Shown here piece after piece: positions 24,372-63,953 of a stretch of DNA of 64,000 nt (position 1 is the first letter of the stretch; each line of letters starts with the position of its first letter). The stretch covers positions 1-64,000 of the forward strand of contig CALXUG010000010.1 of NCBI GenBank assembly GCA_944391625.1, given 5' to 3'. The notes beneath the pieces were generated by a model. That model was not told the DNA's origin, did no database searches, and saw nothing but the letters and a program-made list of their open reading frames with translations. The position numbers and the translations under genes are program-made. Origin of the DNA: an uncultured Clostridia bacterium. Its GTDB lineage: Bacteria > Bacillota > Peptococcia > Peptococcales > Peptococcaceae.

Positions 24372-24504
24372 ATTTGCTTCCTCCTATATCTTTCTGTTTT
24401 TCATAAAACACAAATCAGCATAAAACAATGTTGGAAGACTGTTTGTTACCAGCCCTGCCGCCATGGATAAAATCTTGCTGTTTGTTAAATTTGGTTAATA
24501 ACGA

Positions 24505-24520
24505 TGTTTCACGTGAAACA
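24505..24520. promoter_or_regulatory. parS: parS-like ParB (Spo0J) binding site
   Basis: TGTTTCACGTGAAACA is a perfect 16-bp palindrome and agrees with the conserved bacterial parS consensus bound by ParB/Spo0J. The surrounding 31 bp is identical at 42.85 kb. In Bacillota parS sites cluster in the origin-proximal part of the chromosome. Confidence 0.85.
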
Positions 24521-24838
24521 ATTTTATTTGCAATGCTGCATCGTCGGGAGACTGTTTGTTGCCTGCCCTCCTACCCGACCAGAAAGGCGTCGGGCACCGG
24601 ACAGTTTTACCACCGTTCCCCTTAGTCGGACTACGTCCGCCACGGTTGGAACAGCTGGCCAAACTGTCCGCTTCAATGTCGACGACGGCAACAAAACATC
24701 TCCCTGACTTGTGCATACAAGGCTGGCCTATCCTTTGCCAAAATTCCGACTTAGAGCGAACAATCTTGCCGTATGTCTAAGCTGAGGTGGATGAAATCCA
24801 AACCGAAGCAGACATACAAAAGATTGTCCGAAATACGG

Positions 24839-40928: not shown

Positions 40929-41804
40929 TTAGTTCTTCTGCAATGCTGTCATATCCACAATAAATTGCGGTGTTCCCATAGAACCAGGCGCAACCTCATA
41001 CTCATCAAAAGAAATGACCAGCTGTCCCTGCTGATTGATATAAAAACTCTGATCCGCTGCAATTTGTTTGAAATCAGTTTCAGGCATATCGCTGTTGATA
41101 AAATAAACCTGATTTTCATCCTCAGCCATACGCTGCAGCATCTGTTCTTTGATTTGGGCGCTGATTGCTGCCACATAGTCTACATCCTGCGGAAATAAAT
41201 CAGCCAACTGCATATAGGCTCCCGTTTCTTTGTTCAGATTATAATATTTTAACGATTGAACTCCGCTTGCCATGGTTTCCACTGTATTGACCTCCAAGGC
41301 GAACCACTGATCGGTATCGGTCACAACAGTGTAGTCAATGTCCAATCCGTACACACCGCCCTGCTGCTCCATTTCCTGTTCAAACTGGGCTATCATCTGA
41401 TTGGCATAGGTCTGCACCTGCCCATTGATTTCCCCTACGTTGCTCTGCAGCTTGGCATCACCCTGGGCTTTCAGCTGCGGCGTTTCTACATGAGCCAGAT
41501 AATTTCCACTGTCATCCGCCTGCTCATATTTATGAAGTGTGACAATCTGCACTACTTGCTTCAGCACAGGGATGTCGGACATGGCTACAGCTGCCCGCGG
41601 ACTGATATTGGGCACCGCCACCAGAGTCAATACAGCCGCTGCAGCTGCCCATTGCGCCAAGTGTCTGCCTCTCACAGGTTTCTTTGCAGCTTGTTCCTGC
41701 TTTGCCTTGCGAATACCGGCCTGTAATCGGGTTAGTGCTTCCTCCGGCACCTCTATCTGTTGATATTCCTGTTTTAACATATCCATCTGCTCCTGTCTGT
41801 TCAT
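40929..41804 (-). CDS. rsiV: RsiV-like anti-sigma factor (DUF3298/DUF4163)
   Basis: The 291 residues comprise a cytoplasmic N-terminus, one membrane segment (QWAAAAAVLTLVAVPNIS) and an outer DUF4163/DUF3298 pair ending in GQLVISFDEYEVAPGSMGTPQF, which is characteristic of RsiV. In Bacillus and Clostridioides RsiV binds lysozyme and is then degraded to free SigV. The ATG overlaps the sigma gene stop by 4 bp. The symbol reflects family similarity only. Confidence 0.85.
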   Translation of the reverse strand: MNRQEQMDMLKQEYQQIEVPEEALTRLQAGIRKAKQEQAAKKPVRGRHLAQWAAAAAVLTLVAVPNISPRAAVAMSDIPVLKQVVQIVTLHKYEQADDSGNYLAHVETPQLKAQGDAKLQSNVGEINGQVQTYANQMIAQFEQEMEQQGGVYGLDIDYTVVTDTDQWFALEVNTVETMASGVQSLKYYNLNKETGAYMQLADLFPQDVDYVAAISAQIKEQMLQRMAEDENQVYFINSDMPETDFKQIAADQSFYINQQGQLVISFDEYEVAPGSMGTPQFIVDMTALQKN

Positions 41805-42289
41805 ATAGACTCCACTCCTTCTTTCGCCAAAGATAATTTTAGTTTCTTTAATGAGCGATACAATCTGCTCTTTACTGTATTCAGATTTTCATCCATCGCC
41901 TCGGCAATCTGGTTCAGCTGCATACCTTCAAAAAATCGCAGCACCACCACCGTTTTATCCAAAGGGTCCAGGCTATTCAATGCCTGCCGTAAGTCAAAAT
42001 CGGTATATTGATCCTCCGTTTCGCCGTCGGCTTCATACAGCTCCACCAGCTGCTGCTTATGCTTGCGCAAAAAGCTGATGGATTCATTGATGACAATCCG
42101 GTAAAGCCATGTTCCCACATATTGGGGATTCTTTAATGTGTAACTGTTTTTAATTGCTTTGTACGCGCTTTCCTGTACAATATCCAGCGCGTCATTTTCA
42201 TTGTGCACATAACTGTAGGCCAGCCTGTATAACTTTTTATAATCGGCAATTAATTGCGTTTCAATCAATACTTCATTTTTTTCTTTCAT
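41801..42289 (-). CDS. sigV: ECF sigma factor, SigV-like
   Basis: From the ATG behind AAGGAGGA the protein has 162 residues. It has sigma region 2 (YRLAYSYVHNENDALDIVQE) and region 4 (LDPLDKTVVVLRFFEGMQLNQIAEAM, then LNTVKSRLYRSLKKLK). With the RsiV-like partner it probably controls lysozyme and cell-wall defence. A TGAAAC box at 42343-42348 (minus strand) upstream could be part of an autoregulated ECF promoter, but the -10 does not match the CGTC form. Confidence 0.88.
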   Translation of the reverse strand: MKEKNEVLIETQLIADYKKLYRLAYSYVHNENDALDIVQESAYKAIKNSYTLKNPQYVGTWLYRIVINESISFLRKHKQQLVELYEADGETEDQYTDFDLRQALNSLDPLDKTVVVLRFFEGMQLNQIAEAMDENLNTVKSRLYRSLKKLKLSLAKEGVESI

Positions 42290-42465
42290 TTCGATTCCTC
42301 CTTCGCAGCTGCATTGAGTTAGATAGATACCAGCAAAAGAAAGTTTCATGCCGTCTTCTTTTTTCTGAAAAATAAATCTGCACCGTTTTTTTCATATTCA
42401 TTATACCCGTTTTTTGCTAATTATTTCTAAAAATTTTCCTTATGATTTGTTTTTGCTTTTCATAG

Positions 42466-42494
42466 TTGACTATAGCTAACTATTATAGTATTAT
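42466..42494 (+). promoter_or_regulatory. Strong promoter of the candidate small RNA
   Basis: TTGACT and TATTAT are separated by exactly 17 bp. No open frame with a ribosome site starts downstream before a strong terminator. Confidence 0.7.
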
Positions 42495-42500
42495 ATAAAC

Positions 42501-42757
42501 ACAAGATACGTACCAGCAAAATCTGGTCAGCACACAACAAACTGCCGTTTTGTACGTAGGAGCGCAAAATATCAGATTGTTGTATGCAGGATACACCGTC
42601 CGAATATCTTTTCAATCAAACACAAGCATTGTAATACCGACCTTCAGCAAGTCAGTATTACCCACCACATGCACAGAATTCAGTGAATTCTTGCAACTTT
42701 GCAGAAAAATACCAGCTTGCACGGCATCGGAACTGCCGCCTAAGCTGGTATTTTTTT
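42501..42757 (+). ncRNA. Candidate structured small RNA of unknown class (about 257 nt)
   Basis: Between a good promoter and a strong terminator (AATACCAGCTT paired with AAGCTGGTATT, then TTTTTTT) there is no convincing gene. The transcript can fold: TACGTAC (42507-42513) with GTACGTA (42552-42558) around an inner CCAG/CTGG stem, TAATAC (42632-42637) with GTATTA (42655-42660), and GAATTC with GAATTC at 42676-42690. Conserved landmarks of RNase P, tmRNA, SRP RNA or T-box leaders were not seen. A 69-codon frame starting at 42550 lacks a ribosome site and family. Confidence 0.6.
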
Positions 42758-42850
42758 AGTATGCACTATTTTTCAGGAAATATATTTGTACATACGGCAT
42801 TCTATTGATTCACGCTCACAAAAAACAGCGTCATCCACCTTTGCGATTCA

Positions 42851-43245
42851 TTTGGTTAATAACGATGTTTCACGTGAAACATTCTTGTTTTGCAATGTTC
42901 CATCGTCGGGAGGCTGTTTGTTGCCTGCCCTCCTTCAGTGGACATCTGCTTGTCGGTCTGCCTCAGTTTGGACTGCGTCCAATTCGGCTAGACAGACTGC
43001 GCATCTGTCCGCTTCAATGTCGACAACGGCAACAAAACATCTCCCTGACTTATGTGCATAAGGCTGACCTATCCTTTGCCAAAATTCTGAATTGCGGCGG
43101 TCAGCAACGCAGTTTGTTTTCATTGAGCTGGACACAGTCCATAGCGAAAGAAACAAACAAGTTGGTGTCCTCTGCCCCACGCCTTTCTGGTGGGGTAAAC
43201 TGAAGGATAGGCAAAGATAGGATAACCGACTGCACAATCTTTCAC
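42851..43245 (+). repeat. Interspersed hairpin repeat, copy E (carries parS)
   Basis: The copy starts with the same 31 bp as copy C including parS, then GGGAGGCTGTTTGTTGCCTG. Two hairpin modules follow (cores TGGAC-TGC-GTCCA at 42969-42981 and TGGAC-ACA-GTCCA at 43129-43141, the latter in GTTTG/CAAAC arms). The shared CATCTCCCTGACTTATGTGC block lies between them and a single tail unit comes last. Short open frames here are shadows of the hairpins. Confidence 0.85.
42866..42881. promoter_or_regulatory. parS: parS-like ParB (Spo0J) binding site
   Basis: TGTTTCACGTGAAACA is identical to the site at 24505-24520 and preceded by the same TTTGGTTAATAACGA. It lies at the left edge of repeat copy E. 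Confidence 0.85.
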
Positions 43246-43263
43246 ACCAAACAATAGAAAAGC

Positions 43264-43320: not shown

Positions 43321-44043
43321 CTATAACACTTTCGCCAAAAAGCTTTTGGTTCGTTCCTGCTGCGGATTTTGAAACAGTTCCTGCGGAGTGCCCTGTTCCA
43401 AGACTTTACCGCCGTCTATAAACAACACGCGGTCGGCAACTTCCCGGGCAAAACCCATTTCATGGGTAACGATTACCATGGTCATGCCTTCCTGCGCTAA
43501 GTCCCGAATTACATTCAGCACCTCGCCTACCATTTCCGGGTCCAGCGCCGAAGTAGGTTCATCAAACAGCATAATGGCCGGCTGCATGGCCAAGGCCCGC
43601 GCAATGGCTACACGCTGCTGCTGTCCACCGGACAGATTATCCGGATAGGCATTGGCCTTATCTACCAGGCCCACTTTTTTGAGCAATTCCATGGCTGTCT
43701 TTTCAGCTTCAGCCTTGTTCATGCCTTTCACCTTGATAGGCGCCAGTGTAATATTATCCAACACACTCATATGCGGAAACAAATTGAACCGCTGAAAAAC
43801 CATACCCAAATTTTCACGAATTTTATTCACATCATTTTTAGGATCGGTAATTTCCACGCCATTGATGGTGATAACACCGGAAGTTGGCGTTTCCAGCAAA
43901 TTCAAACAACGTAAAAAGGTACTTTTGCCGGAACCGGAAGGACCAATCACACAAACAACTTCCTGATCCTGAATGGTTTCTGTAATACCCTGCAATACAT
44001 TCAATTTACCATAGCTTTTATGCAGATCTTTTACTTCTATCAT
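43321..44043 (-). CDS. Polar amino acid ABC transporter, ATP-binding protein
   Basis: This 240-residue protein is a typical GlnQ/HisP-type ATPase: Walker [10 protein letters not shown] at 34-42, the family-specific [12 protein letters not shown], signature [16 protein letters not shown], Walker [20 protein letters not shown] and switch His in [11 protein letters not shown]. It is the last gene of a three-gene transporter operon, 11 bp after the permease. Confidence 0.93.
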
Positions 44044-59235: not shown

Positions 59236-59410
59236 CTCTTATCCAGAGTGGTGGAGGGACTGGCCCGACGAAACCCGGCAACTGGCCTTGTTTTTATTAA
59301 AAATAAGGCGCTGTGCTAAATCCAGCAGAGTTTGATTCTGGCAGATAAGAATGGATTGATGTTCAATTAACATAACCCCACTTGTCGCCGACAATGGGGT
59401 TTTCTTTTTT
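59236..59410 (+). ncRNA. SAM-I riboswitch (S-box leader) with terminator
   Basis: The conserved S-box core is present: GTGGTGGAGGGACTGGCCCG, then ACGAAACCCGGCAAC, and a later GCGCTGTGCTAAATCCAGC arm. P1 forms between CTTATC (about 59238-59243) and GATAAG (59344-59349). A terminator stem of ACCCCA...TGGGGT with a run of T follows (59374-59410). SAM binding should stabilise the terminator and stop transcription of the methionine transporter. Confidence 0.93.
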
Positions 59411-63792: not shown

Positions 63793-63878
63793 TGCCGGAG
63801 ACCGGAATCGAACCGGTACGAAGGTTTAGCTTCGCAGGATTTTAAGTCCTGTGCGTCTGCCAGTTCCGCCACTCCGGC
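63793..63878 (-). tRNA. tRNA-Leu (anticodon TAA)
   Basis: The 86-nt minus-strand sequence begins GCCGGAG and ends CTCCGGCA, with a long variable arm as expected for Leu. The anticodon loop CTTAAAA is closed by CAGGA/TCCTG and reads TAA. The TTCGATT T-loop is present. CCA is not encoded. Confidence 0.95.
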
Positions 63879-63953
63879 TGGAGGCGACACCCAGATTTGA
63901 ACTGGGGCGTAAAGGATTTGCAGTCCTCTGCCTTACCGCTTGGCTATGTCGCC
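63879..63953 (-). tRNA. tRNA-Cys (anticodon GCA)
   Basis: The 75-nt minus-strand sequence starts GGCGACA and ends TGTCGCCTCCA with CCA encoded. The anticodon loop CTGCAAA reads GCA, and the T-loop is TTCAAAT. It directly precedes tRNA-Leu on the same strand without a spacer, so the two share a transcript. Confidence 0.95.

Follow-up and report, generated by a model that had tools for sequence, protein, structure and literature searches.

A probable free-standing gene for a structured regulatory small RNA in an uncultured genus of gut Peptococcaceae

The 64,000-nucleotide stretch of DNA analysed here (the window) comes from an uncultured ruminant-gut genus of Peptococcaceae, the nearest public contigs found being MAGs from ruminant caecum. 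Next to a divergent sigV-type gene it contains a stretch that the initial annotation had read as a candidate structured small RNA of no recognized class. What does this locus encode: an RNA gene in its own right, an appendage of sigV, or a short protein? With a probability of roughly 0.7, we take it to be a free-standing intergenic gene with its own promoter and terminator, whose product is a structured regulatory sRNA of ~255 nt from a family that, in the genomes searched, is limited to one genus; most likely the RNA would act by antisense pairing, and its transcription is probably gated at an operator.

Besides the host genome, G000, three further species of the genus have a relative of the RNA (G001, G003, and G005). 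A BLAST search with the G000 element retrieved a relative at the syntenic position in G005 (first 115 bases, 72%), and the G005 sequence in turn retrieved a third member in G001 (73% over 206 bases); in both genomes the copy and sigV are divergently oriented. With R1, a covariance model covering the 3′ half, a fourth member was recovered in G003 (E = 3.6e-11). This one occupies a different place, flanked by ilvD and a gene for a spoIVB-like serine protease, and the closest match to sigV detected in that genome has only 48% identity. Upstream of the R1 match, in sequence that played no part in the search, G003 has the promoter counterpart TTAACT-N17-TATACT together with the loop motif GTAGGAGCG and a box reading CATACACC; this copy also has a terminator. 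Because promoter, core motifs, and terminator recur together at an unrelated locus, the RNA is independent of sigV, constitutes a free-standing gene, and, judged from the sequences, moves as one unit with its promoter. Between G000 and G005, the RNA and promoter align well and the downstream flank does not. The G001 member has neither promoter nor 5′ part, though its 3′ half is well conserved (extracted sigV locus, 1440–1760), and this copy may be decaying, differently expressed, or served by a new promoter. That sigV adjoins the RNA in three of the four genomes, and that the terminator lies between convergent genes, would suit either a part of the sigV locus that acts in cis or a bidirectional terminator region with no RNA function of its own; however, the next gene is not co-directional, the copy in G003 stands elsewhere with the same promoter, and the hairpins preceding the terminator covary, which makes this reading very unlikely. 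A riboswitch or other cis-regulatory leader was rejected, there being no co-directional gene downstream and the neighbours being convergent in the loci examined.

The TTGACT-N17-TATTAT promoter is present where it had been annotated (Table 1) and is the top of 11 sigma-70-like matches in 3.5 kb (10/12). Such a match alone is weak, 6.6 being expected by chance, and it gains weight because it is conserved in G005 (TTGACT-N17-TATGAT) and G003. Housekeeping polymerase would transcribe the sRNA from this promoter and stop at the strong intrinsic terminator, yielding a predicted transcript of ~255 nt. The terminator comprises a 17-bp outer stem, a 5-bp inner stem, a 7-nt loop, and U7, with the loop sequence CGGAAC common to G000 and G005; the strong terminator with seven T described initially therefore stands, whereas its stem is larger than the 11 bp assigned to it. 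Since promoter and terminator are both conserved and a second copy exists at an unrelated locus in G003, the gene can be said to have its own start and stop signals outside any mRNA, as is characteristic of bacterial intergenic (trans-encoded) sRNAs.

Table 1 Positions in the window of the sRNA gene, its predicted parts, and the neighbouring sigma factor gene
Feature	Position	Strand	Basis
sigV-type ECF sigma gene, divergent neighbour, not part of the RNA (ECF-type −35 TGAAACTTTC at 42339–42348)	41804–42349 (start 42289 or 42349)	−	Sequence, ORFs, gene caller
18-bp pseudo-palindrome AGTTGACTATAGCTAACT over the −35 box, candidate operator	42464–42481		Sequence; variant forms with the RNA in G005 and G003
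SigA/sigma-70 promoter TTGACT-N17-TATTAT (−35, 42466–42471; −10, 42489–42494)	42466–42494	+	Sequence; conserved in G005 and G003
Predicted sRNA transcript	42502–42757	+	Fold z −6.2, model R3 285.5 bits, covariation; start placed from the −10 box
5′ domain closed by P1	42503–42610 (P1, 42503–42508 with 42605–42610)	+	Folds and reading of sequences
Hairpin P2 (ACCAG/CUGGU)	42512–42527	+	Predicted fold
Long arm P3, conserved loop motif GUAGGAGCG at 42556–42564	42530–42587	+	Fold, alignment, covariation
Conserved box AUACACC	42591–42597	+	Alignment
Hairpin P4 (GUAAUAC ... GUAUUAC)	42631–42661	+	6/14 pairs with two-sided changes, four species
Conserved box CCACCACAUGC, mostly unpaired	42662–42672	+	Alignment
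Hairpin P5 (UGCACAGAAUUCAGUGAAUUCUUGCA)	42670–42695	+	Fold, covariation
Conserved box ACUUUGC	42696–42702	+	Alignment
Intrinsic terminator, long stem and U7	42703–42757	+	12/21 pairs with two-sided changes

The G000 transcript, folded from a few bases upstream of its predicted start, reaches −78 kcal/mol (z = −6.2), a value matched by none of 200 shuffles; without the terminator z is −3.7, and the full folds of G005 and G003 have z of −5.25 and −6.8, respectively. An alignment of relatives, proposed initially as a check for covariation, bears out these folds. In the four-way MAFFT alignment, scored over a named structure of 47 pairs (P3 tip, P4, P5, and terminator), 24 pairs show two-sided changes against 11 in shuffles, and 0 of 500 shuffles reach 24; 87% of the alignment cells are standard pairs, falling to 41–50% once the partners are slid by one to three columns. 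These controls are somewhat favourable because the alignment and the structure derive from the same sequences. For the 3′ half, an alignment of three sequences showed two-sided changes in 18 of 47 pairs. Individual folds of the four members all place P4 in matching alignment columns (partly so for G005), and those of G000 and G005 also agree on the apical part of P3. P1, outside the counted structure, was compared by reading: its strands differ in sequence yet pair in G000 (AAGAUA/UAUCUU) and G005 (GAUGUC/GACAUC), and are less clear in G003. As to the stems picked out by the initial annotation, TAATAC/GTATTA and GAATTC/GAATTC are the covariation-backed helices P4 and P5, whereas TACGTAC and GTACGTA are not mutually paired in the predicted fold, the second lying at the start of the P3 loop. 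Sequence conservation in the four-member alignment sits mainly in the boxes, that is, in loops and linkers: GUAGGAGCG is kept in three of four members, AUACACC reads AUGCACC in G001, and CCACAUGC and CUUUGC are kept in all four.

Could the same stretch encode a short protein, for example, the 69-aa ORF with a TTG start at 42550–42759? Open frames of 38–69 codons do span the P3–P4 region in all four members; however, their starts, lengths, and frames vary, they lack a Shine–Dalgarno sequence, they are disrupted by frame-shifting indels, and they carry no coding signal. Across the four members there is no conserved ORF in which start, ribosome site, and length are all kept, and, with training on G000 itself, hexamer-based gene calling leaves the interval from sigV to the ABC transporter gene at 43324 empty. 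The conserved coding signal in relatives that would speak against an RNA was thus looked for in four members and not found, the body is without a credible ORF as first described, and the absence of conserved coding is that expected of an intergenic sRNA. A protein gene is highly improbable.

How widespread is the RNA, and does it belong to a known class? The full-length model R3 (322 positions), built from the four members themselves, scores them at 306, 285.5, 263.3, and 218.3 bits. No further member was found among 21 genomes of the order or 398 genomes sampled from the phylum, where the other matches reach at most 28 bits and mostly cover <100 nt; weak R3 matches occur in 28 other genomes of the phylum sample, down to E = 5e-5, and the few weak R1 and R3 matches inspected (two R3 ones from the order search) are promoter-like or terminator-like pieces. 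An R1 match in G009 proved to be a terminator at a gene end and was rejected as a member. The class-level search with model R2 recovered only G000 and G005, and plasmids, phages, and viral contigs yielded nothing specific, 14-mer matches in viral contigs being at about chance level. Within the genus, the RNA is present in all genomes of at least 2.3 Mb and was not found in four smaller ones (1.3–1.6 Mb, 68–80% complete), which may reflect loss or missing sequence. None of the 4227 families of Rfam 15 matched at gathering thresholds, and permissive thresholds on either strand gave only chance-level matches, so the locus indeed resembles no RNA class known to that database. Relatives, covariation, and Rfam searches all back the structured small RNA first suggested; measured against Rfam 15, these sequences very probably represent a structured RNA family not described before and, within the genomes searched, restricted to a single genus of Peptococcaceae. 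A literature search found no described sRNA in this gut lineage of Peptococcaceae, a little-studied one to which the locus adds a covariation-supported structured sRNA family. Like the noncoding RNA motifs of Clostridia and metagenomes in two sets from computational surveys (PMC2864571, PMC8040213), it is a product of comparative structure analysis; it differs in that no Rfam 15 family matches, a comparison that extends to Rfam-listed motifs only.

Individual classes can be addressed more directly. The sRNA shares with 6S RNA (RF00013) a free-standing gene, a high degree of structure, and a similar size; it lacks the single rod with a central bubble of 6S RNA, the locus has no RF00013 match, and the true 6S RNA of G000 lies at C24:2639-2822. 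A CsrB/CsrC-type sponge was excluded because G000 has no CsrA (PF02599 absent), and no more than two to three GGA motifs occur in the loops. More generally, a protein-binding or scaffold RNA (a sponge or ribonucleoprotein), in which structure and loops rather than base pairing are functional, would account for the long compact fold, the concentration of conservation in loops and linkers, and the GGA in the P3 and terminator loops of G000 and G005. Against it, GGA loops usually partner with CsrA, which was not found in the genome, a separate 6S RNA is present, and G001 keeps GGA in neither loop; we consider this reading unlikely.

A promoter of its own, a compact 5′ domain, C-rich boxes left unpaired, and a terminator with a U tail together make up an anatomy that suits an sRNA acting in trans by base pairing. 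The multi-stem 5′ domain would present the P3 loop motif, and the unpaired boxes AUACACC, CCACCACAUGC, and ACUUUGC would be exposed between the later hairpins. Most likely, the boxes would act as antisense to the translation initiation regions of mRNAs encoded at other loci, because two of them are C-rich and the complements of CCACCACAUGC and (C)AUACACC contain AUG, counting for the latter the preceding C present in relatives. Since a B. subtilis Hfq query finds no homologue in 89% of G000, this pairing mechanism is put forward as a proposal. Exact seeds and duplex energies scored against 2388 translation starts gave no convincing excess over shuffled boxes; a few iron proteins (rubredoxin-type, 4Fe-4S) are among the top duplexes, with no enrichment over shuffles.

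What might control the RNA? A dimeric regulator bound to the palindrome over the −35 box would probably gate its transcription. With 0 mismatches, a pattern derived from AGTTGACTATAGCTAACT matches, across six genomes of the genus, only at the three RNA promoters; with one mismatch, matches in the same genomes are no commoner than in the control, and several fall inside coding sequence. One of these one-mismatch matches lies in the feoA-feoA-feoB promoter of G000 and another in an orphan promoter of G007; R3 turned up a similar site in a G011 promoter, that of a DUF2325 gene, and in G018 the promoter of feoA is similar to that of the RNA. In G000, the feo operon (G000:C4:115876-119232) runs feoA-feoA-feoB-Cys-rich protein-DUF2325, its last gene being of the same family as the G011 one, and the occurrence of the same promoter motif before DUF2325 in G011 suggests a role for DUF2325 in iron uptake.

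A PWM built from the three non-RNA sites (G000 feoAB, G011 DUF2325, and G007 orphan) ranks the RNA site second among the intergenic positions of 2.64 Mb, behind feo itself and well clear of the third (19.4 for the RNA site versus 15.3), a test that is partly circular because the sites came via an RNA-derived pattern or model. The same PWM has a weak match upstream of ferritin. In the reverse test, with an RNA-only PWM, feo ranks 10th, and 52nd in the symmetric form. No homologue of Fur, DtxR, or IscR was detected by phmmer in 89% of G000 with sequences of known regulators as queries, and a literature search for feo regulators of this lineage returned nothing usable.

The related site at the feoAB promoter tentatively points to metal or iron status as the signal. 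An iron link is conceivable as a lead, with weak statistics; like the operator and the base-pairing mode, it is something we infer. A more specific form of the preferred explanation would make the RNA an iron- or metal-responsive, iron-sparing sRNA like FsrA, IsrR, or RyhB; it would share a metal-dependent repressor with feoAB and lower the levels of iron-containing proteins. The PWM ranking, the DUF2325 gene ending the feo operon, the G018 promoter, the ferritin site, and the Firmicute precedents FsrA and IsrR (PMC11257911) speak for it; the circularity, the reverse ranks, the control-level one-mismatch matches, the lack of Fur, DtxR, and IscR hits, and the unenriched predicted targets speak against it, leaving it unlikely. 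That the RNA is a genus-specific iron-limitation sRNA doing the job of RyhB/FsrA under a non-Fur regulator, through a AGTTRRCTATAGYYAACT operator common with feoAB, in Peptococcaceae seemingly without Fur, is likewise unlikely.

FsrA of Bacillus subtilis and IsrR of Staphylococcus aureus resemble the sRNA in being free-standing intergenic Firmicute sRNAs with their own promoter and terminator and C-rich unpaired boxes and, tentatively, in an operator common with iron uptake genes. The sRNA differs in its length and multi-branched 5′ domain, in having no sequence or Rfam match to them, no Fur found, and a candidate operator that is not a Fur box, and in that its regulation and targets are predicted ones. 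No Rfam family of RyhB/FsrA/IsrR type matched; because functional analogues of this type share no sequence similarity (PMC11257911), the missing match is no argument against FsrA-like action. With four members, a model, and a candidate operator in hand, it becomes testable whether this lineage has a metal-limitation sRNA without Fur. If the free-standing sRNA is not iron-linked, it is still a clean case of a narrow, fast-evolving regulatory RNA in which structure is kept while sequence changes.

Several observations concern the surroundings of the locus and the rest of the genome. Downstream of the sRNA gene, a parS-like TGTTTCACGTGAAACA occurs at 42866, in a repeat (42838–43260, and again at 24489–24752) that belongs to a dispersed family with ~75–92% identity and ~58 strong matches in 2.64 Mb. 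The part of G000 that was read contains 61 exact TGTTTCACGTGAAACA sites, of which 40 are no more than 150 bp from a repeat copy, and 11 sites fall within 8 kb on contig C27 (26.2–34.0 kb); a mobile repeat spreading ParB sites, if true, would be unusual. Near queC, G000:C17:28963-30477 holds a tandem non-coding array of five copies at ~378-bp spacing, the unit carrying AGTTAG/AGTC(A/G)G-type sites. At least 23 paralogues of a ~675-aa phosphodiesterase-like protein with the N-terminal sequence VIGIDGMDP, an unusual expansion, are encoded on G000 contigs such as C22, C3, and C12; a cluster of operator matches near this family was dropped, as the sites do not align. The window further contains a SAM riboswitch (RF00162) at 59236–59351 and two tRNA genes at 63793–63953.
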